DNA of 64,000 nucleotides from positions 140,455 through 204,454 of IMG/VR virus record IMGVR_UViG_3300044646_001937. The stretch is one strand, 5' to 3'. Below the pieces are notes generated by a model. That model worked only from the letters and a program-made list of their open reading frames with translations. It searched no databases and was not told the origin of the DNA. Made by a program: the position numbers and the translations under genes. The stretch's first letter is position 1; each line of letters starts with the position of its first letter. Below, in pieces: positions 1,454 through 51,757 of this stretch. The DNA comes from a virus.

Positions 1454-1460
1454 TATAAAT
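1454..1460 (+). promoter_or_regulatory. Candidate promoter -10 element (TATAAAT) for the tail sheath gene
   Basis: TATAAATA lies in the 92-base gap before the sheath gene, about 30 nt upstream of its ATG. It matches the T4 late-promoter core, but it also resembles a sigma-70 -10 box. No good -35 is visible at 17 bp. A GGAG at 1472-1475 is 14 nt from the ATG, which is far for a ribosome-binding site. Confidence 0.4.
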
Positions 1461-1489
1461 AAACATATACCGGAGAAATAACTAAACAT

Positions 1490-4315
1490 ATGTACATCAC
1501 ACCTAGAGTATTAATTCAGCAAGAATTCCTGCAGCTACCTGTCTACAGTGAATTTCCATTACCTGCTTTCATCATCGGTCCTAACTATTCGCTGCTACGC
1601 TACAGCGAACCCAATGAAAAGAACCACACCGCAGCAACTACTAAAGACGGCGTGTTACTGGCTACCGAAAACAATTATATTGCTGATGCAGATACTAGCT
1701 ATGATTTTCCTAATGTTCCTGCAGGCGGAAACATAGACCCTACATACACGAAAGTGTATGCTGAGTCTGTTGAAGCGCAATATTTCCCACTACTGTCTTT
1801 AGGTAGTGATTCGGGAGACGCCAATGTTGAGTTAGTACCCAGCGTTTCTGGCGGATACTACAGGAACAAGGTCAGGTTCACTAATCTTGTTATGAAGACC
1901 GCAAATAACTACGTCCGTAGCGAATTACTCTCAAATAGAGACGTTGCGGTGGGTGATGTTATCGAAATTTCCGATCTTGATAATCCTGGAGACACAGCAT
2001 CTGTCGTACGTGCAAAGATCAAAGCTATTGAACCTGAAACGTACATTATTAATGAAGATCTTGCCTCTTATGTCGAAGACATTTACAACAACGAATCTAA
2101 TACAGCTAACCAGAGCCAAGACTATGGGCTTTCTGGATCTGCCACTGGCGTTACAGTAGACGTGAACGAAGACTTTGCATATATCGGATATGCAGGGAGA
2201 AAGATTGTTACAGATACCTACACAGTCACAGTAACTGTAGGCGGAAGTCTTACTGCAGCAAGGTTCTCGATTTCTTCAGATAATGGGGCATTTAAAACAA
2301 AGACCAATGTAGCATTATCTGCAGGCGTTCTCACGCTAGACGACGCTTCAGGCAATAATGTTAAACTTGAGTTTTCACTCGCAGAAGGAGTGACATTCAC
2401 AGCCGCCACAGTGTGGACTTTGAACGTTGAAGCTGCAGTTACACAAGTCACTCCTACCGTTACAGGCACATACTCCGGAGAAGCAGACATAGTCTACACC
2501 CTCACGGTGGAGCGTGGTGGCGCATTCTATGATGGAACTAACTCTACAACCTGCGCTAGGATTTTGGTTAAATCTTCTATCGTAGACACCGCCTCGTTAA
2601 CTTTACCCAGGAAGGCTACACCTGTATTCCAATTGGGAGGCCTAGGCTTGTCGGCAGTGTTTTCTGCAGGTAGTGTTGGTGTCGGTACGGATTATGAAGG
2701 TCTTGTGGCAGGCGATGTGTACTATGTATCAGTTGTTGCAGCTAAGCACGGCGCAGTCACTATTGTGGAATTTGCTGAAACGTTACCTGATTCTTTATTT
2801 GACGCAGCAAATAAAACAGCCTCATTATTCTTGACTCAAAACTCAATACAATTGAATGAAGTTAAGAACACACTAACAGACACCAGAAACTGGACACAGG
2901 ACGAAGCTTACGTGACAGTAAACTCAGGCGCAACCACATCAGTCAGCTCTATTATCGTTGCAGGATCTCCTGCAGAATTACCTATCAAGAAAGCAAAATT
3001 GTTCATTGAATATAGAGCCTTGTTGCAAAACAATATTGTGGCAATTGACTCTGTGCGTAGTCAAGCAGATGTCCTTGCCAAACTTGGCACAATTCACCCT
3101 GACAACCCTCTTGCTCAGGGTGTAAATGACGCTGTCTTAAACGCAGCCAATCAGCTAGTGTACTTCATTGGTGTAGCTACAGATGATCTGGCTGGCTACC
3201 TAAACGCAATCAAAATCTCTGAAAAGAGCGACAAGGTTTACGGGTTTGTGCCACTTACCTTCGATCGCACAATTCAGGACGCTGTGGTTGCACACGTCAA
3301 CGCATACAGCACTAGAGAAGTTGGACGCTGGAGAGTTGCATGGCTTTCCGTACAGGACAATAAAGAGCGCATGATCTATGATAGCGCCGAATACACCGCC
3401 ACAGTTACCAACGACTTGCTCGGCAGAACAAGATTACTGACAATCGAAAATGCCAAGTTTATTGAGGATGGGGTACGCGCAAACGACTCAATCCGCATTA
3501 ATTTTAGCGCTACATCGGACGGCAAGTTAACCTATGATGAGTATATTGTTGACAGTGTACAGACCAATACTACACTGTTGTTGACCCATTCATTACCATA
3601 TGCAATTACACCGAGCGGTGGAGCAAAAGTTCAGGTTGTAAGAAACTACACCAAGAGTGAGCGTGCCTACAACCTAGCTAAGATAGGTGGAGACTATAAC
3701 AATAGACGCGTTCGTTGCGTATTCCCTGATACCTTTAAGTATAAGGGCGTTACGAAGCAAGGCTATTTCGCCGCTGCAGGCTTGGCAGGTCTCAGGTCTG
3801 GTGTTGTTCCTCACCAGGGCTTAACCAACTCCGAATATCTCGGAGCAGACGACCTTAGCAAGGTTGTTATTGATTTCTCTCAGGATGAGCTGAATGTTAT
3901 GGCTGAGCAGGGTATCTGGATCATTACACAGGAAGTTATTGGCTCAACTCCATATGTGAGGCATCAATTGACCACTGATGAGCGCAGCTTGAACACGTCG
4001 GAAGACTCTATCACTACGAACGTAGATAGTATTAGCTACGCTCTCAAGAAAGTCTTGTCACCGTTTATCGGTAGGTTCAATATTAATCCTGATAACGTGG
4101 CTGTTATTAGAGCTGCCGTCGTGGCAGAACTTACATTTAGGTCATCCAACACATACACTGCCCGCGCAGGAAACCAGTTGGTGTCATTCACTCCAGCAAC
4201 CGACATCATCAAGCTTGAAGCAAATCCAACATTCAAGGACATGATTGATATTGAAGTGCGCTTGAATGTGCCTTACCCAATCAACTACATTAACCTGAAA
4301 TTGATTGTTGGCTAA
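1490..4315 (+). CDS. Tail sheath protein (enlarged)
   Basis: Contractile tail sheath protein, 941 residues; T4 gp18 is about 660. The C-terminal third (about 690-941) has the typical sheath core, with the Gly/Ala-rich 'GYFAAAGLAGLRSGVVP' near residue 758 followed by 'ELNVMAEQGIWIITQ' near 800 and a strand-rich end. The N-terminus (MYITPRVL...) is also sheath-like. Between about residues 240 and 415 there are two similar Ig-like units ('TYTVTVTVGG' and 'IVYTLTVERGG', each ending in a Val-rich strand), probably surface-exposed insertions. The sheath polymerises around the tube and contracts on infection. A promoter-like element lies upstream. Two small genes and the tube gene follow. Confidence 0.93.
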   Translation: MYITPRVLIQQEFLQLPVYSEFPLPAFIIGPNYSLLRYSEPNEKNHTAATTKDGVLLATENNYIADADTSYDFPNVPAGGNIDPTYTKVYAESVEAQYFPLLSLGSDSGDANVELVPSVSGGYYRNKVRFTNLVMKTANNYVRSELLSNRDVAVGDVIEISDLDNPGDTASVVRAKIKAIEPETYIINEDLASYVEDIYNNESNTANQSQDYGLSGSATGVTVDVNEDFAYIGYAGRKIVTDTYTVTVTVGGSLTAARFSISSDNGAFKTKTNVALSAGVLTLDDASGNNVKLEFSLAEGVTFTAATVWTLNVEAAVTQVTPTVTGTYSGEADIVYTLTVERGGAFYDGTNSTTCARILVKSSIVDTASLTLPRKATPVFQLGGLGLSAVFSAGSVGVGTDYEGLVAGDVYYVSVVAAKHGAVTIVEFAETLPDSLFDAANKTASLFLTQNSIQLNEVKNTLTDTRNWTQDEAYVTVNSGATTSVSSIIVAGSPAELPIKKAKLFIEYRALLQNNIVAIDSVRSQADVLAKLGTIHPDNPLAQGVNDAVLNAANQLVYFIGVATDDLAGYLNAIKISEKSDKVYGFVPLTFDRTIQDAVVAHVNAYSTREVGRWRVAWLSVQDNKERMIYDSAEYTATVTNDLLGRTRLLTIENAKFIEDGVRANDSIRINFSATSDGKLTYDEYIVDSVQTNTTLLLTHSLPYAITPSGGAKVQVVRNYTKSERAYNLAKIGGDYNNRRVRCVFPDTFKYKGVTKQGYFAAAGLAGLRSGVVPHQGLTNSEYLGADDLSKVVIDFSQDELNVMAEQGIWIITQEVIGSTPYVRHQLTTDERSLNTSEDSITTNVDSISYALKKVLSPFIGRFNINPDNVAVIRAAVVAELTFRSSNTYTARAGNQLVSFTPATDIIKLEANPTFKDMIDIEVRLNVPYPINYINLKLIVG

Positions 4316-12319: not shown

Positions 12320-12757
12320 ATGCCAGCATCACTAGTAACTTTAGGAGGAGGAGATCTATTTAAAAGCGGAGGAGGAGCCGACTCGCTTGTAAACATACCA
12401 ATGGTTAATAGCGTCATAGGACCTGGCGGACTAGCTGTGTATGACAGCGTTAGCGCGCAAGTGGCAGAAACTCTTCAGTTTTTTATTACGTTTGACGACG
12501 TAATTAAGTTCATCCATTTTGGAAAAGGTCTTGGTAATGTCACAGCTCAAGGTACTTTATTTTGTGATTGCAGCGGAGATCTACCAGGAGCCGGCCAAAT
12601 AGCCGGAGCCATCAAAGGGCTTAGAGGCTCAAAGCAACAGTTATCAGTAGGAAAACTGCAATGTACTGGAGTAATGACAAGCGCATCAATTACTGTAACA
12701 GGTGGAGATGACACCATGGGAATATTTAACTTTCAATTTGCTATAGTGAACTATTAA
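12320..12757 (+). CDS. Second tube-like / baseplate tube-adaptor protein
   Basis: A 145-residue beta-rich protein whose size resembles the tube protein, with strand pairs 'ETLQFFITFDDVIKF' and 'ASITVTGGDDTMGIFNFQF' near the C-terminus. It lies between tape measure and hub genes, where many contractile systems encode a tube initiator or a tube-to-hub adaptor. That role is inferred. It starts seven bases after the tape measure stop and is followed two bases later by the next gene. Confidence 0.5.
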   Translation: MPASLVTLGGGDLFKSGGGADSLVNIPMVNSVIGPGGLAVYDSVSAQVAETLQFFITFDDVIKFIHFGKGLGNVTAQGTLFCDCSGDLPGAGQIAGAIKGLRGSKQQLSVGKLQCTGVMTSASITVTGGDDTMGIFNFQFAIVNY

Positions 12758-12759
12758 TT

Positions 12760-13722
12760 ATGTTTAATCATTTCGCAACACTGCTTAGCAACATTGATTT
12801 ACTGCAACTAGAACCTACAGCAAATAGGTTTTTACTAGCCGCAGGAAAAGACAAGCTACTAGATGTAACTAATAACAGTGTTCTTAAACTGACAGATACT
12901 TATACAACTTTAAAAATAGATAGAATATATTCAGATCTATTAAACAGAAATTATCACAGGATCGAACTGCCTACACAGCTAGAGGGGGTTTATAATCTTC
13001 TTTTTCCTGAAGGCAGTTCTGCATATCATAAGCAGTTTCTATTGTACTGCTATTTACGTGTAATTTCAGGAACAGATAAAGCGGAGCATGTTAAAAACTA
13101 TGACAATAGGATAACTTATAGTCTAAACGAAGTGTCGGAGTATTTTAAATTTAATAAACTCACAAGAACACTTTATAGTGATAGAGGTTTTGAGTTGCTT
13201 GTCTCAGGCAGCCTAAAGCCGCAGAATACTTTAACAAATTCATCCTCAGTGTTTATCATAAGCCAAGAGAAAGATACCTCTAACGTTTATGTCTATAACG
13301 CCACACAAAGAGAATATTACAAAGCAGGAAAAGCCTCCACAAACAATCCGCAGGGCATGTCAACCGCTTTAGAGTTCAGCTCACTAGGTCAAACTACATC
13401 TAAACCTATAGGTCTAGGAGATACAGGACTAACCATAACTCTCACAGGAGATTTTAATAACCTTACTACAGGATTCACAAAGTCCAGTAATAAGCGCTGG
13501 TCATTCATCGCAGAAGCTCCTTTTGTATTCAGTCTTTCTGAAAAAATGAATGACTTGAACTTAAAATATCGTTATATTGAGAGTATGTTTGAATACAATA
13601 GAAATGCCTGTAATTTAACGTATGAGAATATGTGGAACCAGCACTTCAATGATGCATATAAACTTACAGGATTACTTTTAGCCTATGTTGAAAGGGTGCA
13701 TTTGTTATGGCAGGAGATGTAA
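12760..13722 (+). CDS. Hypothetical baseplate-region protein
   Basis: A 320-residue protein of unknown family. An N-terminal helical part (about 1-150) is followed by a strand-rich middle (about 150-260) and a helical C-terminus rich in aromatic residues. The end of the gene overlaps the following hub gene by 16 bases. A baseplate or hub accessory role is suggested by its position alone. Confidence 0.7.
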   Translation: MFNHFATLLSNIDLLQLEPTANRFLLAAGKDKLLDVTNNSVLKLTDTYTTLKIDRIYSDLLNRNYHRIELPTQLEGVYNLLFPEGSSAYHKQFLLYCYLRVISGTDKAEHVKNYDNRITYSLNEVSEYFKFNKLTRTLYSDRGFELLVSGSLKPQNTLTNSSSVFIISQEKDTSNVYVYNATQREYYKAGKASTNNPQGMSTALEFSSLGQTTSKPIGLGDTGLTITLTGDFNNLTTGFTKSSNKRWSFIAEAPFVFSLSEKMNDLNLKYRYIESMFEYNRNACNLTYENMWNQHFNDAYKLTGLLLAYVERVHLLWQEM

Positions 13723-15290
13723 AAATAAGTACAAGTATAGGTACAGCGATAGGAGCAACAATTGTGTATCCTATGGGAGGAATACCCTACGCCGCTGTCG
13801 ACATTATACCGTCAGGAGGGATTAAAATATCTCAAGGAGGACTACCTGATATAGATTCTCAAAAACGCCAGGAGGCATCTGTGTCAGTGTCAGTGAAGTC
13901 AAATGGAGGCAGGGGAGGTAGTTTAAATTTTAAAGGAGTGATCGACGGCATGAGTGTAAACAATATGGTCGGGCAGAGCTCGTACCAAGCAATTATTAAA
14001 AACGCCGGCGTATGTCTACTTGAAGCCACAACACTAATGCCTGGTCTCATTCCCTCAGGTATTAATGTTTACAAAATGCCCAACTTTGGGGCCACTCATA
14101 ACTCACAAGGAGGAGACGACGACAATTTGGAACATTTTGTAGATATGCAGGATGTAGATCTGAAAAAATCTCCAATAGAGGTTTACACAGAAATTCTTAA
14201 AAAAATATTACAAATGCAAGTCGATGGCTCGTGGGAGAAAAAAGTAGGGCTTGAAGAGATGGTTTCAGGAGGACAGCCTTTTGAAAAAATATTCAATGGT
14301 TCAGCCTACAAAAAAACAGCAACGAACGCATTAAAGTATATATCTACCGTAGATTTAAGCGCAGTTACCTCAGGCGCAGCATCCAAGGTAGGCATGAGCG
14401 ATGACGCACTGGTGACTAGTTTGATGAGAATTTTTAAACTAGGCCCCCAGGTAGTGCTTGAGAATTATCTAAACTTCTTAAGATTGTTAGGGTGTACAGT
14501 AATATTCAGTAACAGTAAAATGTATGTTGTACCGGAAAACTCTACACTTAAACAAGGAGGAAAAGGAATAAACAGCGCTACTCCTAATGACTATAATGCT
14601 TATTCATATAACGATAATGGTTATAGAGATATAGGTAGCTGTATAGTACTGACAGATGGAAGTATGGGAGGATTCAACTTAGCTAGCAAGGGGTTTGATT
14701 CAGGCACAATAGGCTGCTTTGAAGACGCGAAAGTATCTAAAGCCGGAGGAACCCTCATAGTTTCAGCAAACCCATTCATGGCCGCATCAGCAAACGCGCC
14801 GGCAGCATCAGACAGTAAAAAAATAGCTCAAAAGATGGACAATCCAGGAGATCCGTTACTAAAATCTCCAGCTACCGCAGCCGAGCAGGGTAAGGCTCAA
14901 TCAGGCGCAGCCGCACTAGCCAGCGGAATGAAAAATAGATTTAAGAAAGTCGGATCAGTGCTAGACAATTATGCACAGTCTGTACTATATCAGGCCAGAT
15001 ATGGAGACAGAACAGGCTCTGTGACTATGGAGTTTAATCCGAATTGGGTACCAGGAACAGGCGGCTCTATATTTATTAAGCAAACAAATACGTATATACA
15101 TTTTAATGTAACCACTGTAACGCACATGATTAGTACTGCAGCGCCAACCACCGGAACAGCCATAACAACAGTGAGCTTCAACTGTGGAAGAGTAGGTCAA
15201 AGTCCTGCAGGACTGGATAGCTATAAATATTTTGGATACGACAGCGGTAAGGAAAAAGGTATTCAAGGGTCATATATAGGAGATTCTTAA
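13707..15290 (+). CDS. Putative baseplate hub protein (gp27/gpD-like)
   Basis: A 527-residue protein. Its N-terminal strands, a central helical part with 'VLENYLNFLRLLGCTVIFS', an Ala/Ser-rich linker near 355-410, and a C-terminal strand domain with 'GTGGSIFIKQTNTYIHFNV' recall hub proteins such as gp27 and gpD, where this last domain packs the tube-like ring. The position after tape measure and tube adaptor agrees. No catalytic motif is visible. The start overlaps the previous gene by 16 bases, and the sigma-like gene follows after two bases. Confidence 0.55.
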   Translation: MAGDVKISTSIGTAIGATIVYPMGGIPYAAVDIIPSGGIKISQGGLPDIDSQKRQEASVSVSVKSNGGRGGSLNFKGVIDGMSVNNMVGQSSYQAIIKNAGVCLLEATTLMPGLIPSGINVYKMPNFGATHNSQGGDDDNLEHFVDMQDVDLKKSPIEVYTEILKKILQMQVDGSWEKKVGLEEMVSGGQPFEKIFNGSAYKKTATNALKYISTVDLSAVTSGAASKVGMSDDALVTSLMRIFKLGPQVVLENYLNFLRLLGCTVIFSNSKMYVVPENSTLKQGGKGINSATPNDYNAYSYNDNGYRDIGSCIVLTDGSMGGFNLASKGFDSGTIGCFEDAKVSKAGGTLIVSANPFMAASANAPAASDSKKIAQKMDNPGDPLLKSPATAAEQGKAQSGAAALASGMKNRFKKVGSVLDNYAQSVLYQARYGDRTGSVTMEFNPNWVPGTGGSIFIKQTNTYIHFNVTTVTHMISTAAPTTGTAITTVSFNCGRVGQSPAGLDSYKYFGYDSGKEKGIQGSYIGDS

Positions 15291-15292
15291 TT

Positions 15293-15925
15293 ATGAATGA
15301 CGTAGAACAGATGATTAAGGACAACAAGAAGTTGATTGAACTGGAAGTGAGTAGATATGCTACTAACCTACCGAAGATAACTGTACAGCTAGAAGCCTAT
15401 AAGCTAGCCAGAGAGGCAGCCAAAACATATAGCCCCGCCTCTGGATTTAAATTTAGCACGCATCTAGTGAACAGTCTTAAAAAACTATCAAGACTTTCCA
15501 CGCAATATGGTAACGTAGTGAGAATTCCTGAGAATACTCAGTTTGGTATAAATAAACTGCAGAAACTTGAAAAGGATCTGGAGCACACTCTAGGTAGAGC
15601 ACCAACCACAGATGAGCTAAGCCATCACTCAGGAATGTCCATGAACGCTATAGTTAATACGCTAGGCAGCAAAAAGATAAGCTCAGGTATATCCTCTCTT
15701 TTTGAAAGCCCTACACTGTTTGACAGTAACAATGACGAATGGGTGCATTTCGTATATCACGATCTGAGCGACAAAGATAAATTAATTTTTGAACATAAGA
15801 CAGGATTTGGTGGAAAGCCTGTGATGGACAATTCGTCACTGGCCAAGAAATTAAATTTGTCTACCAGTACTTTAAGTAATAGAATTAAGATGATAAATAA
15901 TACATTAGCGAAAGGATGGAAATAA
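15293..15925 (+). CDS. Sigma-70-like transcription factor within the baseplate operon
   Basis: A 210-residue protein with three parts of a sigma factor in order. Region 2.3/2.4-like: 'YSPASGFKFSTHLVNSLKKL' (46-65), compare the 'Y..GYKFSTYA..WIR' core. Region 3: 'VRIPENTQFGINKL' (76-89) then 'LGRAPTTDELSHHSGM' (100-115). Region 4: 'LSDKDKLIFEHKTGFGG' (158-174) followed by the helix-turn-helix 'SSLAKKLNLSTSTLSNRI' (181-198). Region 1 and most of region 2 are missing, so it is shorter than a housekeeping sigma factor, like T4 gp55. It probably directs host RNA polymerase to a class of phage promoters. Its place among tail genes, two bases after the hub gene, is unusual. Confidence 0.85.
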   Translation: MNDVEQMIKDNKKLIELEVSRYATNLPKITVQLEAYKLAREAAKTYSPASGFKFSTHLVNSLKKLSRLSTQYGNVVRIPENTQFGINKLQKLEKDLEHTLGRAPTTDELSHHSGMSMNAIVNTLGSKKISSGISSLFESPTLFDSNNDEWVHFVYHDLSDKDKLIFEHKTGFGGKPVMDNSSLAKKLNLSTSTLSNRIKMINNTLAKGWK

Positions 15926-16342
15926 ATGGCAGTTTTCTCAAAACTTAAAAGACTTGTAGAGAAGTTCGATACTTGGATGCAAAAAATCCCCACAGCCCGT
16001 TTGGGTAATGATGTGGAGGGCAGAGCTTGGTTTGCTAAGAGTATAGAATATACAAACCCTTTTAAGCTTCAAAACCTGCGAAATATTACAGACAGGGAAG
16101 ATCTAAATAGTGATTATTCTGCTAAATATGACGTAAAAGACCCTAAAGGCAGAAAAGGCATAAGTGGTATTAAAGTTGAAATCTCTGCGCTGTACAGTTT
16201 TCAAAAATGTTTTGTGCAGAGGTATAAAGGTAGAATGCACTACTACAGGGATGACCTCTCACAAAAGGGAGCTAGAAATATGGGTACAGTAAACCAGTCT
16301 CTAGGTATACTTGAAGAGTTTAAAAATAACCTTAAAAATTAA
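15926..16342 (+). CDS. Hypothetical basic protein in the baseplate operon
   Basis: A 138-residue basic protein with an amphipathic N-terminal helix and a 'ALYSFQKCFVQRYKGRMHYYRDD' type segment near residues 89-112. No family is recognised. Its ATG directly follows the stop of the sigma-like gene, and the gp25-like gene begins two bases after its end. It could be a baseplate wedge accessory or a partner of the sigma-like protein; neither can be decided here. Confidence 0.7.
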   Translation: MAVFSKLKRLVEKFDTWMQKIPTARLGNDVEGRAWFAKSIEYTNPFKLQNLRNITDREDLNSDYSAKYDVKDPKGRKGISGIKVEISALYSFQKCFVQRYKGRMHYYRDDLSQKGARNMGTVNQSLGILEEFKNNLKN

Positions 16343-16344
16343 CC

Positions 16345-16824
16345 ATGCCGATCAGCTCTATCACCTCAAATTACATAGACAGAAAAAAAGACATTAGTAT
16401 ATTTCAATATCCTAATGCTCTAGCTATTGGAGAGCAGACAGTGGCACCTAAGTTTGGTAAAATTTCCAGATACTGTACTGGAGTACAAAAGCTGATCCAA
16501 AATTATGCTGTGATGCTTCTCACCAATATAGGTTCTCAACCAAATTACCCCACCTTTGGCACAAATTTAATGGGCAAACTTAATGCAGGAATTTCACCTG
16601 TAGACAAACTTGCAGCATCTCAGCTTTTTGAATTAGCTAGTTATGAGACAGTATCAGCGTTAAAAAGCTACCAGCATTATCGCACAGACATTCCAGACGA
16701 TGAGCTCATTGTTGACGCCACATTGACTGATATAGCTCTCCAGGGAGGCTTTGCAGCTTTCGAAGTAACAATAACAACCCAAGCCGGTGATGCGGTTGAG
16801 TTCGTAGTCCCATTACCTAAATAA
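16345..16824 (+). CDS. Baseplate wedge protein, gp25-like
   Basis: A 159-residue protein matching the gp25/gpW-like baseplate family in size and layout. An N-terminal part is followed by 'GVQKLIQNYAVMLLTNIGSQPNYPTFG' (about 46-72, the helix plus 'G..P..P.FGT' turn typical of the family), a helical stretch, then a C-terminal strand pair ('FAAFEVTITT'). The J-like gene follows five bases later, the usual pairing of gp25 with gp6. The protein helps join the sheath to the baseplate. Confidence 0.83.
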   Translation: MPISSITSNYIDRKKDISIFQYPNALAIGEQTVAPKFGKISRYCTGVQKLIQNYAVMLLTNIGSQPNYPTFGTNLMGKLNAGISPVDKLAASQLFELASYETVSALKSYQHYRTDIPDDELIVDATLTDIALQGGFAAFEVTITTQAGDAVEFVVPLPK

Positions 16825-16829
16825 ATATT

Positions 16830-18452
16830 ATGGCCGAAAACATAGAAGCAACAGTAGAGCGCCTCACAGCCTTCATAGAGCAGAACTACGCCGACGTAGA
16901 AGCAGGACCAGGGTCAGTCATCAGCGAGCTACTAATAAAGTTGGCTGCTACATTACACAATGAGCAGTACAATCTTATTACACAACTAGAACAGGGAAAT
17001 ACATTTTTAAAAGTAGCCGAATCGACTGAAGACACATATTCCCCGATAATTGACCAGCTGGCGTCAAACTATAACACAGCCAGAAACGCAGGTATTAAGG
17101 TCAAAGGCAGAATCAAGGTAACTATTGACGATGATAATGAATACAATTTTACAGCACGTCAGATCCAGTTTATTCAACCCAGCTTAAACCTTAGATATTT
17201 CCTGACAACAGATGCTCGTGTAAGATTATCTCCATCTCCAACACTAGCTGAAACGCAGTTGTATCGCGATAACGGTCTTTACTATTTTATATTAGATGTA
17301 GAGGCAGAGTATGCAGGCGAGCAGTATCAGGCGTCTTCAGGAACTTTGTTTACTGTCGGAGAAAACAATTTTATCGATGGTTTTGTAAAAGCAGAAGCTT
17401 ATGGTAATTTCTCATCAGGTTTGTCACCAGAAACAGATAAAGAGTTGGTAGCTAAAATAAAATATAATTTAGGTAACACCAGGTTTGATTCGCCTGCAGG
17501 TATAGCAAACAGGTTCAGCAGGGAATTTCCAGGCTTTCAATATCTCTCTGTATGTGGCGCAAACGATATAGAGATGACTAGGTCTAAACAAAACGCGCTA
17601 GGCATATCAACATTCGGTAAGGCTGACGTGTATGTAAGGTCAAGCATTGGGCCGCAAGTAATGCACCTTAAGAAGCAGGCCACAAAAACTGCAGAAAACA
17701 CATGGACTATTGATATGTTGAATCATGAAGTTCCAGGCTTTTACAATATTGTTAGTATTATTCCTGATGTGGTAGACATGTCACTGGGTGGAACATTGCT
17801 ACAGAAAACGCCTATAGCCTACAGTTACGCATACTATCCTGAAAAAAGAAATAACGAGTTGTATAGTGTCATAGATGCAAGGTTTACAAAATATCAAACA
17901 GCAACCGTCACACTTGATTATGCCGACCCTGGTAATGCAGAAATAGGAAGCAATGCTTATTTCTTACTGCAGGTTAACTATCAACCTAATATTGCGGAAA
18001 TGCAAGACCTGCTATTGTCTGACACTGAAAGATTAGCTTGCGCAGACTATCTTGTAAAAGCAGTGATTCCATGTATGGTTTCACTGAATATTCAGCTACT
18101 TAAGAAAAGACCAACAGACACGTTTGAGTCACTGAATATTCAGCAGCTTAAAAAAGATATTTTCTTATATATTAACACAATTCCATTTGGAGAAGAATTG
18201 CATGCATCTAGAATAGTAGATATATGTCATAATTACGACATCAGACGAGTAGATCTACCGATAAGCATGAAGGGTGTCATCCTATGTCCAGACGGAACCA
18301 GCCTACCTATTTCAGGCAATGACGCGCTAACCATCCCAAATAATCTGGCTAAGGGGGTAACTCCAAAAACAACAGCTTATTTCATAGACTATTACAGAAC
18401 AGAAAACGGGCAGATCAACCCTATTGATAACATAGGCTTAAATATTGTTTAA
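16830..18452 (+). CDS. Baseplate wedge protein, gp6/J-like
   Basis: A 540-residue protein of the baseplate J family. It begins with an N-terminal helix and the characteristic 'ADVEAGPGSVISELLIKLAA' (20-39), followed by strand domains with 'YNFTARQIQF' near residue 108 and a 'SPETDKELVAKI' segment near 199. Together with gp25 it builds the wedge ring that triggers contraction. It overlaps no upstream gene. Its stop lies one base before the most likely start of the next gene. Confidence 0.85.
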   Translation: MAENIEATVERLTAFIEQNYADVEAGPGSVISELLIKLAATLHNEQYNLITQLEQGNTFLKVAESTEDTYSPIIDQLASNYNTARNAGIKVKGRIKVTIDDDNEYNFTARQIQFIQPSLNLRYFLTTDARVRLSPSPTLAETQLYRDNGLYYFILDVEAEYAGEQYQASSGTLFTVGENNFIDGFVKAEAYGNFSSGLSPETDKELVAKIKYNLGNTRFDSPAGIANRFSREFPGFQYLSVCGANDIEMTRSKQNALGISTFGKADVYVRSSIGPQVMHLKKQATKTAENTWTIDMLNHEVPGFYNIVSIIPDVVDMSLGGTLLQKTPIAYSYAYYPEKRNNELYSVIDARFTKYQTATVTLDYADPGNAEIGSNAYFLLQVNYQPNIAEMQDLLLSDTERLACADYLVKAVIPCMVSLNIQLLKKRPTDTFESLNIQQLKKDIFLYINTIPFGEELHASRIVDICHNYDIRRVDLPISMKGVILCPDGTSLPISGNDALTIPNNLAKGVTPKTTAYFIDYYRTENGQINPIDNIGLNIV

Positions 18453-18453
18453 A

Positions 18454-20268
18454 ATGGATATTAAATTTTTATCTGAAGCGTATCCATCCAATGACCTCAC
18501 TGACGGACAATATTTATACAGGTCTTTAGGTTCTTTTTGGACACACATATTTCAGGATAAAAAGGCACTGCAAGGCTACACACTAGGCCAAGCGGAAGAA
18601 TTAACGCAGTCATATTTAAAGCTGGCTGAAATAATTAATACATACAGCGTCAAAAATATTCCATTGTACGCCAAAGAAAAATGGAAACCGCTGCTCATTA
18701 AAAAATCAGCAGCCAACAAAGCTTCTTTTAAGTTTGAAAATACTGGAGCAGTGTTTGGGGTACAACCGCAAGATGACCCATACTACGCTAATAGACTGTT
18801 TAGGTTCGGTTTTCCGAAAGAAACAGGAGATTCTGTTTACGGTTATGAGGTAGGTAACAATATTAAAGACTTTGGACTGCTGGCTAACAGAGTAATAGCG
18901 CCGTCTTTAGTTTTATTACCTGGAGTCGACTTTACGTTAAGTAATGGTGTATTGTACTTTAACAAAGATATATTTAATTCAGATTATCTACCTAAATCAA
19001 AAATACTTGGAGAGTTTGGCAGCGTGGTACAATTCAAAGACGCATCAGGCGAGCTAGTTGATGATGAATTAATTATCCTATGGATGCACGATGCTAGTAT
19101 AGATGTAGACTATCTATACAAAAACTTTGGGATACTTTTTGACTTTAGATTGAGTACATCTCAAAACTACAAAGATATACTTAAATCTTTTATGCAGCTT
19201 GCGGTAGACGGACCTTCAATCGAAGCAATCACACTAGCACTCTCCGCGTTCTGCGGGCTACCAACAGTTATAGAGCCTACTGAAACAGTTGAGGATATTT
19301 TTACAAACTCCAACCATACCCACAGGATTGTAGTCACAGACAAGCAGGTATACAGATTGCCCATAGATCAAGAACTAGCGAGAAATGTACAAGTAGGTAA
19401 AAAGATATACTTAGGACAATGCATTGGAGCTGGGCTTGAAGTCATAGATGCAGTCATAACACCTGACTGGTGGATAAATAGTATCAAAACAAAGAAGTTA
19501 GGTTTACCGGCCCACTTGTTTGCAGCTAATGTAAAACATCAACTGTTTTTTGAATCTGACGTTACCTTGATTACAAAAACAAATGGCGATATATATTTTC
19601 CTGTAACTGGAAACCCCAGGGACGTGCAGGCTTTTCAGGCATATATTAACGAACCAGCAAACAAAACAATTATTTCCGAAAAGCTGGGGTTGCTCGATGA
19701 CAACTCCACAGGATTATACAGCTCTCCTTTGGATTTTGTATTTTCAAATTTTTTAAAAAACAATACGCTTTTAATTAAGCTGTCGTTTCATTCCGACAAA
19801 CAACTAAAATTGTTTTTTGATCTGCTGCCTACTATCAAGGATTATTTACCTGCGCATGTGTGCCTGCTTACATATGTCACCTTAACATTACAGAGCGAAA
19901 TATTAGGAGGGCTTAATAATGCTCTAAGTATTTCTGATTACCCTAATGAATATTTCAGTATGGATGGTTCGGATCCTTTCACAGGCAGTCGTCCAGGCAG
20001 CGTGGAAGAATCTGTATACTATAAAGATTATGCAAATAGGTTATTCTGTATATCTGTAGGACCATATAGGGACGGAAAGCCTTTACATGATGAAGATAAC
20101 CTGGATACTATTATGATTGATAATGGTACCACAAAGAACACCAGCTTTTCAGGCATAAAATCAGGACTTTTAAGAACAGAAATACCTGAAATTGTGATAC
20201 CTCCAGGCGATGCGGCTAGAGGGCCATCTACCAGAGAGGTGCAAACTATCTTATTAATCGACTTTTAA
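18454..20268 (+). CDS. Putative baseplate wedge / tail protein
   Basis: I chose the ATG at 18454, one base after the J-like stop; a TTG at 18445 is also in frame. The 604-residue protein has no recognised motif. It has a helical N-terminus, a middle with 'KFENTGAVFGVQPQDDP' and strand-rich parts. In many contractile phages the gene after gp6/J encodes another wedge component (gp7 or protein I type), so that role is inferred. It ends the long tail operon, and a promoter-like TATAAT follows at 20280. Confidence 0.55.
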   Translation: MDIKFLSEAYPSNDLTDGQYLYRSLGSFWTHIFQDKKALQGYTLGQAEELTQSYLKLAEIINTYSVKNIPLYAKEKWKPLLIKKSAANKASFKFENTGAVFGVQPQDDPYYANRLFRFGFPKETGDSVYGYEVGNNIKDFGLLANRVIAPSLVLLPGVDFTLSNGVLYFNKDIFNSDYLPKSKILGEFGSVVQFKDASGELVDDELIILWMHDASIDVDYLYKNFGILFDFRLSTSQNYKDILKSFMQLAVDGPSIEAITLALSAFCGLPTVIEPTETVEDIFTNSNHTHRIVVTDKQVYRLPIDQELARNVQVGKKIYLGQCIGAGLEVIDAVITPDWWINSIKTKKLGLPAHLFAANVKHQLFFESDVTLITKTNGDIYFPVTGNPRDVQAFQAYINEPANKTIISEKLGLLDDNSTGLYSSPLDFVFSNFLKNNTLLIKLSFHSDKQLKLFFDLLPTIKDYLPAHVCLLTYVTLTLQSEILGGLNNALSISDYPNEYFSMDGSDPFTGSRPGSVEESVYYKDYANRLFCISVGPYRDGKPLHDEDNLDTIMIDNGTTKNTSFSGIKSGLLRTEIPEIVIPPGDAARGPSTREVQTILLIDF

Positions 20269-23809: not shown

Positions 23810-26800
23810 ATGGCAGCGCTGGAGTACCTAACGCAGAATAGTCTAACATCACATCCTTTTAAAAATTCTTATGGGCTTGAAGAGGGGACAGGTGCTGTCG
23901 ACGGTTGGTTTTACGACATTCTATTTGTTTCGTATGACGACTCTATTCGTAGAGTATACCTCCAAAAAATAGAAAAAAAGGAAAACGGCAGTTTAGAGAT
24001 AGGGATCAATAACGCTGAAACGCTAGCTAGGCTGCCTGAGGGTCTAATAACTATAGCCGCTGAAGATGTTGTAGATCATTATGCCAATAAAATAAAAAGT
24101 TTTGTAGGCGTAGCCAAATCAAAGTTTGCTATTAAGTTTGTGATTGGTCCAACTTTGGCGGCTAAAGAAGCTTTTTCAGAAAATTACCTACCTGCAGTAA
24201 CCGAACTTTCAAGCGATGTAACAGTATTAAACACTGTCAGGGTGAATTCTATTACATTTGAGGCTTATGACGGACCAATTTTAAACACTGTAAAGCTATA
24301 TACTGGAGAAGAAATAGCCCTAGTCGAGCCCAGATATAATTCAACATTTACACTAACAGACACAAGCTCCGGCGAGTTGAGTGTCTCCGCAGGTAGCGGC
24401 GCTGGACTGTATGACAATTGTCCAACCCCAGGAAGTATAACCGATGTTCATACTTTAAATGAAATACCACCAAACTCAGAAGGAACTTTATTTCTACATG
24501 CCACAGAGTGTCATTCATTAAATTTATTAACAACTAATGACGAACTTATATATGGTGATCAATTAGACACCTACAGATCATTTACTTCACCTGGTAATAC
24601 AGAACCGTTCAATGCAGTTAATCCAGAACACACTATAACTTTAGAGAATTTTTGCAGCGTTAAGTGTCCCCATGAAAACGTAAAAGCTTTAGCGTATTAT
24701 ATTAATCGTATAACTGACGGAGCTTCTGGACTAGCTGACATAGCGGTTAGAAATACAGAAACTAGAGGTATAGGTAGTGCTGAAGGAACAGAATTTCATG
24801 TAGATAATGCAGATTTCTGTGATGCTGCTGCGAACATATTCTTAAAATGCCCTGTAGATAGTGAAGCATTCATTCCATGCAATCAGGGTTTTATTAAATA
24901 TTTGCACGAAGGACGCACATTGCAGGTGTCCTACGATAACGCCACAATTACAAATTACACAATTGTTTCTGTGATTAATGAGAATACTGTATTACTAGAC
25001 GGCGCTCCGTCTGGAATAATGGGCAAAATCCCATTTAGGGTAATTGATAGTGGTGTTATAAGTAATATCAATTGCGCTAGCAGTCTTTATAACAAACAAA
25101 ATGACGATAAATTAAAACCATACTTTAAAGTAAGATACAGTACCAGTGAAGCATTCAATTCGGATTTTGAGTATGTCACATACGCAGCAATATCTGTAGG
25201 TGTATTTAATCCAGGTCCAGAACCTGTGCGACTCAATATAGCCTTTAATCCAAATGGACTAGGACAACAAGGCAGTTTTAAAATAAGAAAAACAGATTCA
25301 ATCTACGTTTCCAGCGAAAGTGTAGTTGACTTAGATTGTAAAGAGCACGCATTTGTAGAAGCAGTCTACTATATCAAGTGCGGAGAACCTGCCAGCAATT
25401 TTAGTATATTGGTAACAAACATTACAGCCAACCCAGATGAGATATTAGGAGATGGAGCATATTACCTACCTCCGTTAGTTGGTGTGAGTTGTCCAGGAGA
25501 CATAGCCGGAGCAATAAACACCGTGCAAATTGTAAAGCAAGACACGGACACATTTAGCCAAATCATTGGCGTTGATCCGTTAGTTCAAGATGTTAAAATT
25601 TATGGAACACTTCCTGATTGGTTGACTATAACATTTCAGCCAGCACAATCAGGACAGCCCAGCTCTTCACTAGTGCTTACAGGTACAAAAATATCTACAA
25701 ATAATTATAATACGGAATATAATTTGTATGCAAGATACACAGGCATTGCAATACCTGTGGTATCGCAGCTAGTTATTCAGTATGTGGCTCCGCCCATATT
25801 TATATATCCTACAGAGAAGTATTTTACTCAGGAAAAACCTCTAGTTATTGACCCGCTCATAATTTATACCGAAGAAAATCCACTAACGCAGCTTACTGTG
25901 AAAAACATGGATAAGCCGCTTAGCTGGAACGGTGACAATTTTAGTTCTTATGGAGTTGACGTAATTGCTGAACGCGAGCTACCTCAGGGACTAACGCTAG
26001 ACACGGTTACAGGAAAAATAACAGGAAGGTTGTTAGAGGGGGTAACGGACGAAGGATACTGGAAAATAGCTTTAACAGCTACAAATCCTGCAGGTATAGT
26101 TTCTCAAAATCTTTATCTGGGGGTATCCAAAAGAGCCATCCCTGTAATTTCTTTTTTACAGCAGTTACCTACAGTCATAGATAACTACACCCAATATACG
26201 ATTGAGGAGCCTTTGTGTTCGTTTAAAGCCACAAATGATCCTATCCTTCTATATCAGACGACAGATAAATTACCGTCAGGACTTAGACTGGACACCACCA
26301 AAGGCGTTATATATGGCAAGATTACTGAAACAGCAGCAGGAACCAAAACAATCAATGTTTACGCTAGGAATTTTTATGGAAAATCCATACTTCCGCTAGA
26401 AGTAACGATCTCATATACCATATATAAACAACCAGAAATTCAAGCGCCTACACAGTTTGCAAGATTTAATGGTGAGGACGGCTCCACACTAGAAGAGCCA
26501 CTATGTACAATAGTTGCAACACAAGCCTATGGAGGGCTTAATAATTTTGATCCGCTACTTACAGACGCCACACGCAATCATTACACAGCCACAAATCTAC
26601 CTCCTGGTTTTTCAGTAGATCTTTATACCGGTAAAGTCTATGGAATCCTAGATACTTCTGAAGGTTTTTCAAGAGCCTATGCGGTAACATTAAAAGCCTC
26701 TAATCTAGTTAATACCGCAACTGTACAAATTTACATTACATTTCCAAATGTAAAATTGCCTGTAATTACAAATTTGGCGAGTGGTAGTTTGTTTAAAGTT

Positions 26801-29800
26801 ACTAGGAACCTAGAGTATTCCGTAGAAGCTGGCCCACTGGCGTCAATATATGCGATCTATTTAGACCCTATAATTATCGCCACAGGTTTACCTGCAGGAT
26901 TAACCTGCCTACCTACCGGAGAAGTAGTAGGTATGGTAGACTCTTTGCTACCCGCCGGAGATTATACCGTTTCATTTAGGGCACAAAATAGATATGGAGT
27001 ATCCACCCCAGCTATTGTATGTATCGTACGAGTGGGGATTGAGCTACTTAGCCCACTACCTAACTCAATGTTAAACTTATCTGTGAATGCACAGATTACA
27101 CCAATACAAATTACAACAAGCCAGGGTGTGCCAGTAACACTTACAGTCAGGAATTTACCGGCAGGGCTAACATTTAATAATTCACAAATATACGGCACAC
27201 CGGTTACAGTCGGCAGATCTAAAATATACATAACCGCGTCGGCTGGAGTCTTCGGTATAATAAAAGCCGTCATAAACGTATCCGTGTCAATTCCCACATA
27301 TAGTCTTTCAGGTGCAGTTGTGGGTGTCGACTTAGCAGCGGCAACAAATGTTTTTTTAACCATAACCAGTGTAGAAACTGGCGCTATATACACAATAAAA
27401 ACTACAAGCACGGGCACATACCAACTTAATGGGCTGTATGCAGGGATATACAACGTATCCGCCCGTAAGGATCGATTTGAAATAGAGCCAATCACAAGAA
27501 CAATTACAATTGTAAATACGGATGTTGCATTGCAGAGTTTTTTAATTACAGGACCATACAGACTTATAGTCGGTACAGTAACCAACGCAATTAATAAAAG
27601 CGGTGTAGAGAACGTGGCGATAATTACATTTAATAGGACTGTGTACACAGATACAGCAGGCAGGTTTTTTATAAATTTATTACAGAACGAAGAAATCACA
27701 ATTACTGCGGATGCTGTTTCTTATGTGTTTAATCCAAAAACAATAGATATACCGATTAGTAATGAAGACTCAGGAGGTTATTCGTTTAAAGCCACTCCCT
27801 CGCACAATATTTCAGGAACTATAGTTTCTAAAAACATTGAAGTTCCTGCAAATATTGGAGTTCTGATAGACAATCAGAACACTGGAGAAAAATATTACGA
27901 TATAGCACCTGCAGGCAGCATTTCAGTGCAGGCACTTGACGGAAAATACAAAATATATCCTAACCCTGAAGCATCAGATTATTATAATAGTATATGGCAA
28001 TTTAAGCCAAAGTATATACCTGTAGAGGTGAATGGTCTGTCGATTCAACTAGCGAAATCGTTTAACATATTTTCAGGTAAAACAATATCAGGAAGAGTTA
28101 TTGCTCCGATATATGAAACAGAAATTGGTCTACCTATTCCTGTTGCTGGTGTGGCGATTACTGCCGCAAATATTACTCTAGATCAGACAAGGTTTATTTG
28201 GCTGAAGTTGGATGCAAACAATCCACCGACTATAAAGCTAGATCTAAAAACAATTAGAGCTGCCGCAGCATCCACTGAAAACATTCCTGTGACGGTTGAT
28301 TTTACAACAGGATTTTTTAATCTAAGAGGTACAACAGCAGGACAGCTTTCAATGGATGGATACACTGCGTCAGTAGAAGAAATAATTCTTCTGAAAGATC
28401 AATTTTATCCTGAGTTAAACGGAATATATACAATTGTAAACCCAGGCTCTGCAACAGAGACGTTCCATCTCGTCAGAAGTACTGAAGCAAACTACAATGA
28501 ATCTTTAAAAGTTGGTGCAGCAATATATGTAATTGGAGGCATCACAAACAGCGCTGCTACATATTATTTAACTACTGAAGATCAAGTTACAGCAATTTCA
28601 GATATAGATGGAAATTTCACACTGACAAACGTCTACCCAGACACTTACAACCTATACGCTCATAAAGAAGGTGTTGGTATATTAAGTATTCCTCAAGTCA
28701 ACGTATCCACGAATAATGCAACCAATCTAGTAATCGTGCCTAATACATATCAAATCACTGGCACGATACAGTATAGAGCGAATTATTTAAGCACGACGAA
28801 GACTCCGCTGACAGATGTTCGCATCAGTCTTTATAGAGCAAAAGATTTATTCTTACTTAAAAAAAGCGAGAAATCAAAAGCAGACGGCTCATGGATATTT
28901 AGATCTGTACCTGACGGAGACTATATATTGAAAGCTGAATTTAGAGGAATGACACCTACAGTAGTTGAACAAAAAATTACTGTAGATGATGGCGATGTTA
29001 ATCTGGTTGCCATGGAAGTGTATATAGCTGTTTTTACAGCACCATCCGCACCTATAGTAAATAACATACAGGGTGGTTATAGGTCACTAAAGGTGACAGT
29101 GAGCGAAAACCCAGAAGACATAGGTACAGAAATCCGCTATTACGAATATTCGCTAGACTCAGGCACAACATGGGCAACTGCAGTGAAAACTTCAGACAGC
29201 GAGATATTGATCCCCGATCTCCCTCCAGCAGAAAAAACTATCTTTAAATTAAGAGCCAGAAACTTATGGTCGTATGGACCTGAGGTTGAGCTGCAGGGTG
29301 TTGCATTTGACCGCCCTGGCGCACCTACAATTACAAGTATAGCGCGCAAAAATAAAGAGCTGTTGGTAAATTTTTCACCACCACTATTTTCAGGCGGGCT
29401 ATACATAGACAACTATGCATATTCCACAGACGGAGGTATCACTTTTTTACCTATTACTCCAGCAAACATAACTGGCTCATTTAGTATACTTAAAAGATCA
29501 AATAATGGGTTGGATTTGGTGAATGGTGAAAAATATCAAATAGTCCTTCACGCGCTAGCTGGAGAAGCTGCAGGTTTAGACTCAGAGCCGGAAATAACAT
29601 TCCCTGTAGGTACTCCTGGACCGTCGAGACTTCTGAGTGTTGTCGGCGGAAGATTGAATGAGCTAGATATAAGCTTTGAACCTCCAGAAATAACCAATGG
29701 TGCACCTGTGGCAGATTATGCATATTCTTTAAATGGAGGTCCATTTACACCATTAGGTACAGTTAACAGTCCCGCAACAATAACAAATTTACTCAACGGT

Positions 29801-30523
29801 ACAATCTATAGCGTGAGAGTCGCCGCAATCAATTCTGAAGGCGTCGGTGATGCCTCTAATTCAATTCAGGCAAGAGTTGGTGTAACTGCTGACGCTCCAA
29901 CTATATTTAAGGCAGAGCACGCAGGAGGAGGCAAACTAAGAATTTACATACAGCCTGGCGCTAATGGATTTTCACCAATAACAGGCTACGTTTATTACAT
30001 TGATTCCCCTGAAGGGGGCACAGAAAACAGCAACACAGCCACACCATTAGGCGGCCTTACACCTGACAACACTGCAATAGTGTATAGTAAACTTGATGGG
30101 CAGGGCGGAACAATTGGGACTATGTTTGAAGAGTCAAGATTGTACACAATCAGCATAGCTGCCGTTAATGAGTTTGGAACTAGTACAGCTTCTGAAAAAA
30201 TATCTTTTTTTGTAGTATATACAGCACCTCGCGCGCTAATAGTTAATTCGTATATAGAAGAGCATGATAGAGTCATATTCAACTTATCTTTTGAAAACAA
30301 TGACACAGGAGGCGCTGGAGGATATGTTACAATAACCAGTATAATTAGAGACTCTGATGGAAATATAATTACGGATACGTATGGAAATCCCTTGGATAAT
30401 CTTCAAACATACTATAATGTTTTCACTCGTTCAGAGTATACCTATACTGTAGCTGGGTTGACTGCAGGGGTTACGTATGATATCACAATTTTAACATCAA
30501 ATGCTGCAGGCACAGGAGCTTAG
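23810..30523 (+). CDS. Giant tail fibre-like protein with Ig-like, carboxypeptidase-regulatory-like and fibronectin-III-like repeats
   Basis: A 2237-residue protein. The N-terminus (residues 4-15, YLTQNSLTSHPF) has the shared anchor motif. From about residue 600 to 1120 run about six putative Ig domains of the He_PIG type, each with a 'LP.GL..D..TG...G' core. From about 1160 to 1330 and 1648 to 1740 come carboxypeptidase-regulatory-like units. About five fibronectin-III-like repeats (about 1740-2237) close the protein, which ends in tandem stop codons TAG TAG TAA. No signal peptide or transmembrane segment is visible. It likely forms a long flexible receptor-binding or whisker-like fibre. Confidence 0.8.
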   Translation: MAALEYLTQNSLTSHPFKNSYGLEEGTGAVDGWFYDILFVSYDDSIRRVYLQKIEKKENGSLEIGINNAETLARLPEGLITIAAEDVVDHYANKIKSFVGVAKSKFAIKFVIGPTLAAKEAFSENYLPAVTELSSDVTVLNTVRVNSITFEAYDGPILNTVKLYTGEEIALVEPRYNSTFTLTDTSSGELSVSAGSGAGLYDNCPTPGSITDVHTLNEIPPNSEGTLFLHATECHSLNLLTTNDELIYGDQLDTYRSFTSPGNTEPFNAVNPEHTITLENFCSVKCPHENVKALAYYINRITDGASGLADIAVRNTETRGIGSAEGTEFHVDNADFCDAAANIFLKCPVDSEAFIPCNQGFIKYLHEGRTLQVSYDNATITNYTIVSVINENTVLLDGAPSGIMGKIPFRVIDSGVISNINCASSLYNKQNDDKLKPYFKVRYSTSEAFNSDFEYVTYAAISVGVFNPGPEPVRLNIAFNPNGLGQQGSFKIRKTDSIYVSSESVVDLDCKEHAFVEAVYYIKCGEPASNFSILVTNITANPDEILGDGAYYLPPLVGVSCPGDIAGAINTVQIVKQDTDTFSQIIGVDPLVQDVKIYGTLPDWLTITFQPAQSGQPSSSLVLTGTKISTNNYNTEYNLYARYTGIAIPVVSQLVIQYVAPPIFIYPTEKYFTQEKPLVIDPLIIYTEENPLTQLTVKNMDKPLSWNGDNFSSYGVDVIAERELPQGLTLDTVTGKITGRLLEGVTDEGYWKIALTATNPAGIVSQNLYLGVSKRAIPVISFLQQLPTVIDNYTQYTIEEPLCSFKATNDPILLYQTTDKLPSGLRLDTTKGVIYGKITETAAGTKTINVYARNFYGKSILPLEVTISYTIYKQPEIQAPTQFARFNGEDGSTLEEPLCTIVATQAYGGLNNFDPLLTDATRNHYTATNLPPGFSVDLYTGKVYGILDTSEGFSRAYAVTLKASNLVNTATVQIYITFPNVKLPVITNLASGSLFKVTRNLEYSVEAGPLASIYAIYLDPIIIATGLPAGLTCLPTGEVVGMVDSLLPAGDYTVSFRAQNRYGVSTPAIVCIVRVGIELLSPLPNSMLNLSVNAQITPIQITTSQGVPVTLTVRNLPAGLTFNNSQIYGTPVTVGRSKIYITASAGVFGIIKAVINVSVSIPTYSLSGAVVGVDLAAATNVFLTITSVETGAIYTIKTTSTGTYQLNGLYAGIYNVSARKDRFEIEPITRTITIVNTDVALQSFLITGPYRLIVGTVTNAINKSGVENVAIITFNRTVYTDTAGRFFINLLQNEEITITADAVSYVFNPKTIDIPISNEDSGGYSFKATPSHNISGTIVSKNIEVPANIGVLIDNQNTGEKYYDIAPAGSISVQALDGKYKIYPNPEASDYYNSIWQFKPKYIPVEVNGLSIQLAKSFNIFSGKTISGRVIAPIYETEIGLPIPVAGVAITAANITLDQTRFIWLKLDANNPPTIKLDLKTIRAAAASTENIPVTVDFTTGFFNLRGTTAGQLSMDGYTASVEEIILLKDQFYPELNGIYTIVNPGSATETFHLVRSTEANYNESLKVGAAIYVIGGITNSAATYYLTTEDQVTAISDIDGNFTLTNVYPDTYNLYAHKEGVGILSIPQVNVSTNNATNLVIVPNTYQITGTIQYRANYLSTTKTPLTDVRISLYRAKDLFLLKKSEKSKADGSWIFRSVPDGDYILKAEFRGMTPTVVEQKITVDDGDVNLVAMEVYIAVFTAPSAPIVNNIQGGYRSLKVTVSENPEDIGTEIRYYEYSLDSGTTWATAVKTSDSEILIPDLPPAEKTIFKLRARNLWSYGPEVELQGVAFDRPGAPTITSIARKNKELLVNFSPPLFSGGLYIDNYAYSTDGGITFLPITPANITGSFSILKRSNNGLDLVNGEKYQIVLHALAGEAAGLDSEPEITFPVGTPGPSRLLSVVGGRLNELDISFEPPEITNGAPVADYAYSLNGGPFTPLGTVNSPATITNLLNGTIYSVRVAAINSEGVGDASNSIQARVGVTADAPTIFKAEHAGGGKLRIYIQPGANGFSPITGYVYYIDSPEGGTENSNTATPLGGLTPDNTAIVYSKLDGQGGTIGTMFEESRLYTISIAAVNEFGTSTASEKISFFVVYTAPRALIVNSYIEEHDRVIFNLSFENNDTGGAGGYVTITSIIRDSDGNIITDTYGNPLDNLQTYYNVFTRSEYTYTVAGLTAGVTYDITILTSNAAGTGA

Positions 30524-51358: not shown

Positions 51359-51757
51359 GGGGGTGAACCGGTTTCGACTGTGTATGAGCCCCTGCAGCAG
51401 CATGTAGAGGAAGCCTGGTTGGCCTCTTAAAAAATCTAGGTAAAATAAACGCAAAGTCTGAATTTGACTTCGCCCCTTCGGTAGCAGAAGCGGATGCATT
51501 CCTCAAGGCCGCCGGCTTTGTGGATGCTGAGCTCCTCGCTGCATAAGGTACAGACTGGATGCTATTAAAAGTCTGTAAATGTTAGTAGCTGGTGCTTGAA
51601 GAAAAGAATTGCCGCTCAAGCAGAACAAATAACAATTCAAGAGAATGCGTACAGTTTGTCTTCCGACGATACGCATTCTTACAAAAGGAAGGCTAAGCAT
51701 GTAGACGCTGTAGGATAAGTATACAGGACAGGGGTTCGACTCCCCTCACCTCCACCA
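51359..51757 (+). ncRNA. ssrA: Transfer-messenger RNA (tmRNA), one-piece, phage-encoded
   Basis: The 399-nt RNA has all landmarks. The 5' end GGGGGTG pairs with CACCTCC before an encoded ACCA (3' end at 51757). The D-loop-like GGTTTCGACTG lies at 51370-51380. A T-arm GGGGTTCGACTCCCC sits near the 3' end. The resume codon is probably GCA at 51451-51453, and the tag frame runs 31 codons, AKSEFDFAPSVAEADAFLKA then AGFVDAELLAA, to TAA at 51544-51546. It ends in hydrophobic LLAA as needed for ClpXP-type recognition. A long pseudoknot-rich middle follows. tmRNA rescues stalled ribosomes and tags their products. A phage copy is rare, and the tag is long (E. coli has 10 tag residues). Confidence 0.95.

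Follow-up and report, generated by a model that had tools for sequence, protein, structure and literature searches.

A sigma factor gene within the baseplate operon of tailed phages that encode their own RNA polymerase

The window analysed here, a stretch of 64,000 nucleotides (positions 140455-204454 of a 204454-bp virus record, G000), has an open reading frame resembling a bacterial sigma factor in the middle of its baseplate genes. Why should a phage produce a transcription factor side by side with the proteins of its tail? An earlier note on this DNA had answered with a sigma-70-like protein that could drive late transcription in a positive-feedback loop. The genes involved are the following, in window coordinates.

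12320..12757, + strand: structural-operon gene, 145 aa, a neighbour kept in close relatives
12760..13722, + strand: structural-operon gene, 320 aa, conserved neighbour
13707..15290, + strand: hub-like tail gene, 527 aa, directly upstream of sigma, position and order conserved in relatives
15293..15925, + strand: sigma-70-family factor gene, ATG start, 210 aa, regions 2.1-2.4, 3 and 4
15926..16342, + strand: small conserved gene, 138 aa, directly 3' of sigma
16345..16824, + strand: gp25-like baseplate wedge gene, 159 aa (PHROG 975 baseplate protein, 2e-4; PHROG 43 baseplate wedge, 0.007)
16830..18452, + strand: gp6-like baseplate wedge gene, 540 aa (PHROG 6 baseplate wedge subunit, 2.3e-5)
18454..20268, + strand: baseplate-operon gene, ~604 aa, conserved neighbour

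The hub-like gene ends at 15290, 2 nt before the start of the sigma ORF (15293), and the next ATG (15926) stands immediately 3' of the sigma stop codon, the very spacing that the earlier note had described. Its further claim, that the factor is encoded and probably translated together with baseplate proteins, also agrees with these operon coordinates. The name 'hub' is taken from that note, as the hub-like gene gave no Pfam or PHROG match of its own; the equivalent in Vibrio phage D69 of the 138-aa gene that follows sigma weakly matches a 'baseplate hub' entry of PHROG. Elsewhere in the window there are a 2237-aa gene with Ig, fn3 and carboxypeptidase-regulatory-like repeats (23810-30523), a 3616-aa gene without any Pfam match at all (35938-46788) and a full-length tmRNA gene (51359-51757, + strand; Rfam RF00023, 148 bits), the tag of which, according to ARAGORN, is unusually long (31 residues).

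The window ORF is confirmed as a genuine bacterial-type sigma-70-family factor. The profile search against sigma families, which had been put forward as a check, matched Sigma70_r3 of Pfam over the cut-off (5.5e-7) and PHROG 351 'RNA polymerase sigma factor' across residues 5-206 (2e-11); no Sigma70_r4 match was found by sequence in Pfam. A phmmer search of the PDB recovered only sigma factors down to an E-value of ~0.02 (best 5.8e-6), with alignments that run from region 2.1 into region 3. The AlphaFold model (pLDDT 72) had sigma factors as all of its top structural matches: residues 2-72 superpose on residues 374-446 of E. coli sigma70 (1SIG; 1.3 A, Z 11.2), revealing the fold of region 2, and residues 145-210 superpose on region 4 of SigA (1.7 A, Z 10). 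Profiles, PDB alignments and structural matches all bear out the sigma-70-like identity suggested at first. As for the individual regions, 3 and 4 had been recognised correctly, and so had the missing first part, region 1 being the sole sigma region absent from the protein. Region 2 had been read as only '2.4-like', which did not hold; it is present from 2.1 onwards and complete except that one residue is missing after the KFST motif. One residue of this region, N60, invariant in 12 aligned sequences, stands where sigma70 has a tryptophan in contact with the -10 element, so that an altered promoter specificity appears plausible. Core RNA polymerase (RNAP) binding and promoter-specific initiation are the predicted functions of the protein.

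The position of the gene is a lasting feature of these phages. Sigma is intact in all close relatives (53-80% identity) with the gene order unchanged, and phages as distant as ~30% identity share the order hub-sigma-gp25-gp6. Two isolates, Vibrio phage D69 (VPHD69_0011) and Salmonella phage Arash (gp10), carry the sigma gene in the equivalent place, the Arash protein being about 22% identical to that of the window over the alignment. Using iterated profiles, we found the hub upstream and gp25 downstream in D69, in Arash and in 27 of 27 distant loci with identities of about 28-34%; in six of these (L065-L067, L070, L071 and L078) extra genes intervene between hub, sigma and gp25. Relatives at about 30% identity retain the sigma domains for core binding as well as those for DNA binding. 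Two of the loci encode the baseplate-operon sigma as a fusion protein with a NUDIX domain at its N-terminus (L065 6536-7612 and L066 6551-7642; Pfam 2.5e-11 and 8.6e-14), and in L067 the sigma frame stays open ~400 aa further upstream, a stretch with no Pfam match. Some short human-faecal records matched the sigma query as well; the two examined were bacterial dnaG-rpoD fragments, not phages, and were discarded.

The partner of such a factor would be an RNAP, and the same 204-kb record encodes one outside the window, together with a second sigma-like protein (coordinates of G000).

118825-121830: fusion of the C-terminal part of beta and the N-terminal part of beta' (Rpb2_6 2e-46, Rpb1_1, Rpb1_2, DSDGD catalytic motif)
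123409-125232: C-terminal beta' protein (Rpb1_3/4/5)
33629-34213 (= L014 14629-15213): second, ECF-like sigma protein (Sigma70_r4_2 over the cut-off)

Read by eye, the beta' stretch that bears the bacterial sigma-docking coiled coil is retained in G000. The RNAP of D69 and Arash is of the same type, and there is one PF00562 place per genome (in G024 a single frame is split into two matches). RNAP beta was present in all of the first 6 sigma phages tested; of 30 additional sigma contigs 24 had it, including 17 of 17 of those of at least 130 kb; the six contigs in which it was missing are pieces of 44-128 kb. The reverse test selected contigs by RNAP profiles, blind to their sigma content, and those already known to be sigma-positive were left out. 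A profile of all RNAP beta domains proved too diverse for scanning the collection, and two sub-profiles were used. The sigma profile gave one match in each of the 26 large contigs picked in this way, and in 24 of the 26 the hub before and gp25 after sigma were found within 1.5-kb flanks. The other two, the near-identical L375 and L376, have sigma as a 379-aa frame with no hub or gp25 in those flanks. Clustering the blind-set sigmas at 45% identity, with the proteins of the window, D69 and Arash added, yielded 13 groups, and the linkage is therefore not one clone counted repeatedly. As negative controls, three phages with other sigma types contained no RNAP, and in the stretch shown no baseplate genes lay close to their sigma genes (n=3). 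The sigma profile had no match in five isolates with a different RNAP (Rhizobium TM30, YerA41, Va2, Carin-5 and Vibrio 1.031), so that the association belongs to this lineage and not to every RNAP phage. Within the lineage, sigma is near-obligatorily linked to the phage RNAP.

G001, G002, G003, D69 and Arash (Gp196) likewise have a second sigma, encoded outside the structural operon. The ECF-like protein of G000 is hardly matched in the relatives, whose second sigmas differ.

If these phages have sigmas and a polymerase of their own, promoters of a particular kind might be expected before their genes. The earlier note had singled out TATAAATA as a promoter element of the sigma, at 1454..1461 (+ strand) in the 92-nt gap before ORF 1490-4315. 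This word belongs to no enriched class: the window contains 15 copies against 7.8 expected, nearly all within genes, and upstream of genes in G000, G005, G003, D69 and Arash there was no clear enrichment (p 0.02-1; the enrichment p-values are purely descriptive, as motifs were picked on the same genomes), which speaks against that role. Plain word enrichment upstream of genes, with no motif chosen beforehand, gave as top words GGTATAAGT in Arash, TGTTATAAG in D69 and GTGGTATAA in G000; the full D69 motif recovered by an EM search is about TGTTATAAGTAAcaTGTA (22.6 bits). The EM motifs in G000, G005, G003, G033 and from the first Arash seed drifted to ribosome-binding sites, terminators or low-complexity sequence and were unused. 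Structural genes lie on the plus strand in both isolates. Intergenic sites of the TGnTATAAG type (early-type from here on) number 0 on the plus and 20 on the minus strand in D69, and 1 and 17 in Arash; TAAAATA-type sites number 7 plus and 2 minus in D69, and 4 plus and 2 minus in Arash. Taking both phages together, 37 of 38 early-type sites are on the non-structural strand and 11 of 15 TAAAATA-type sites on the structural one (Fisher 2e-7), a strand split that played no part in picking the TGnTATAAG class. D69 and Arash have, then, two phage-specific promoter classes divided by strand. The sole structural-strand early-type site of Arash (GGTATAAGAAATATGA, L027 11588) lies at the gp9 start, right before gp10. 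The promoter classes, clear in Arash and D69, are weaker in G000 (5 upstream sites), and the early-type motif did not emerge from word enrichment in G033, G022 or G019. Host sigma70 prefers T at the last hexamer position; the hexamer ends in G in Arash and D69, which argues against a simple reading by the host factor. Another element, TTTTTTTAGCTATCAG, is found directly after terminator-like hairpins, frequently followed by TATAAT, in G000 (40413, 51650, 54047, 94032, 97378, 99159) and G005 (113389, 125519, 166978); tested as a promoter class, it showed a modest excess (28 vs 15.5 in G000; 24 vs 17 in G005).

A way to see where the sigma ends up is provided by the proteomics of Arash particles. 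Table 2 of the Arash paper gives 100% coverage for sigma Gp10, with 24 unique peptides and 467 spectra, against 128 unique peptides and 3516 spectra for beta Gp206 and 40 and 1210 for beta' Gp216 (PMC10585845). We computed from this table 2.00 spectra per residue for sigma, 2.31 for beta and 2.00 for beta', values that fit a 1:1:1 complex, in a semi-quantitative sense. The unique-peptide density of Gp10 is the highest of the 38 Arash proteins compared in the table, the primase, DNA ligase and two helicases having 0.2-0.7 per 100 aa. The second Arash sigma, Gp196, is absent from this virion table of 116 proteins (PMC10585845). The same list includes replication enzymes, the authors allow for carry-over (PMC10585845), and a list of this length very probably does include some. 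This virion evidence comes from one relative, and the window phage is known here by its genes.

Taken together, we consider it probable that the window sigma confers specificity on the phage RNAP and travels in the particle, is injected to serve early transcription and has its stock renewed by the late operon. Packaged with the phage polymerase, it may turn on the earliest phage genes once it has entered the cell. The sigma would be the promoter-specificity subunit of the phage's own multi-subunit RNAP, produced late from the baseplate operon, so that new particles would be loaded with sigma and polymerase; at the next infection the packaged holoenzyme would enter the cell and fire the early-type promoters (extended -10, TGnTATAA) without host sigma. 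A second sigma would redirect the same single RNAP to TAAAATA-like promoters before the structural genes, a class that would include the baseplate operon, and the packaged sigma would be refilled. A factor encoded only in a late operon cannot set off the very programme on which its synthesis depends, and carry-over in the particle would therefore be needed; with sigma, beta and beta' all listed in the Arash particles, packaging and injection would jointly explain gene position, linkage and virion data. Binding of the sigma to the phage RNAP and its injection are predicted steps, and which sigma reads which promoter class we infer, the packaged one being assigned to the early-type promoters by the logic of the cycle. 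If this reading is true, early transcription would be independent of both host RNAP and host sigma.

The loop of the earlier note, in which a late sigma would exert positive feedback on late promoters including its own, using the phage RNAP and reaching the virion passively, we regard as unlikely. The sigma gene does lie inside one unbroken run of structural genes, and GGTATAAGAAATATGA, an early-type site on the structural strand just before gp9-gp10 of Arash, could allow self-regulation, but a factor from the late operon alone cannot start late transcription, a second sigma exists outside the structural operon, and the density of sigma in Arash particles, as tabulated, is on a par with that of beta and beta'. 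The linkage to RNAP and the virion presence given in that table point instead to the start of the next infection. Still more doubtful is that the sigma redirects the host RNAP core to phage promoters. Phages with a sigma and no RNAP, where this happens, are common (PMC7824862, PMC13282480), and the window protein has kept the complete sigma fold, region 4 included; against this, sigma and phage RNAP occur together in all of the 26 blind-picked contigs of the lineage. Finally, a sigma fold that has lost its transcription role and been co-opted as a structural component of the baseplate or virion is very improbable, for although the fixed slot between hub and gp25-type genes, the abundant spectra tabulated for Arash particles and the replacement of the -10-contacting tryptophan by N60 would suit it, core- and DNA-binding domains are kept in ~30%-identity relatives and in the AlphaFold model, and the RNAP linkage would be left without explanation.

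What these data reveal is a sigma gene locked into the tail operon in a large, diverse phage group. If the packaged holoenzyme is real, it would explain why a regulator is produced together with structural proteins and would supply a small viral RNAP, dependent on sigma, that could be reconstituted; it would also allow the gain of sigma to be dated against the deep-branching phage RNAPs. With the isolates Arash and D69 at hand, the idea is directly testable.

In the open-access PMC literature we found no paper linking sigma, RNAP and baseplate operon. Two reviews, from 2020 (PMC7598289) and 2026 (PMC13282480), divide large phages into those with RNAP and without sigma and those with sigma and without RNAP, and Iyer et al. 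2021 draw the same line, stating that the RNAP-bearing group has no sigma (PMC7824862); contrary to the division in the reviews, sigma and RNAP co-occur without exception in the large contigs tested here. The mReC Caudovirales (Weinheimer and Aylward 2020, PMC7481178) are tailed phages from the environment in which beta and beta' can be recognised, as in the window phage, and the word sigma is absent from that paper. Closest is Arash, which like the window phage has a homologous sigma before gp25/gp6-type genes together with RNAP beta and beta'. Its sigma, beta and beta' are reported in particles (PMC10585845). Among the papers found, that on Arash is alone in noting sigma and RNAP in particles; it lists gp10 as RpoS, and its passages covered contain no discussion of gene order, conservation or a holoenzyme (PMC10585845).

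Gp55 of T4, named in the earlier note as a model, is likewise a phage-encoded sigma-type factor, but its partner is the host RNAP and its gene lies among non-structural genes, whereas the window sigma is in the baseplate operon. A gp55 type finds no support in the presence of regions 3 and 4 in the window protein, nor in hhalign, where the sigma family profile was unmatched to gp55 (probability 0.2%, a weak test against a single sequence). The multi-subunit RNAP of the window phage has its counterpart in phiKZ and AR9; in phiKZ one RNAP travels in the particle and is injected to carry out early transcription, and gp226 of AR9 and gp68 of phiKZ work in the non-virion enzyme (PMC7598289, PMC7824862, PMC13282480). 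The two schemes differ in that phiKZ and AR9 have two RNAPs and no recognisable sigma, whereas the window lineage has one RNAP place and, in six genomes, two sigma-like genes. That these tailed phages form a group with a complete packaged holoenzyme, made of one RNAP and the baseplate-operon sigma, in which the switch to a second sigma replaces the two-RNAP scheme, is a proposition to which we give an even chance.
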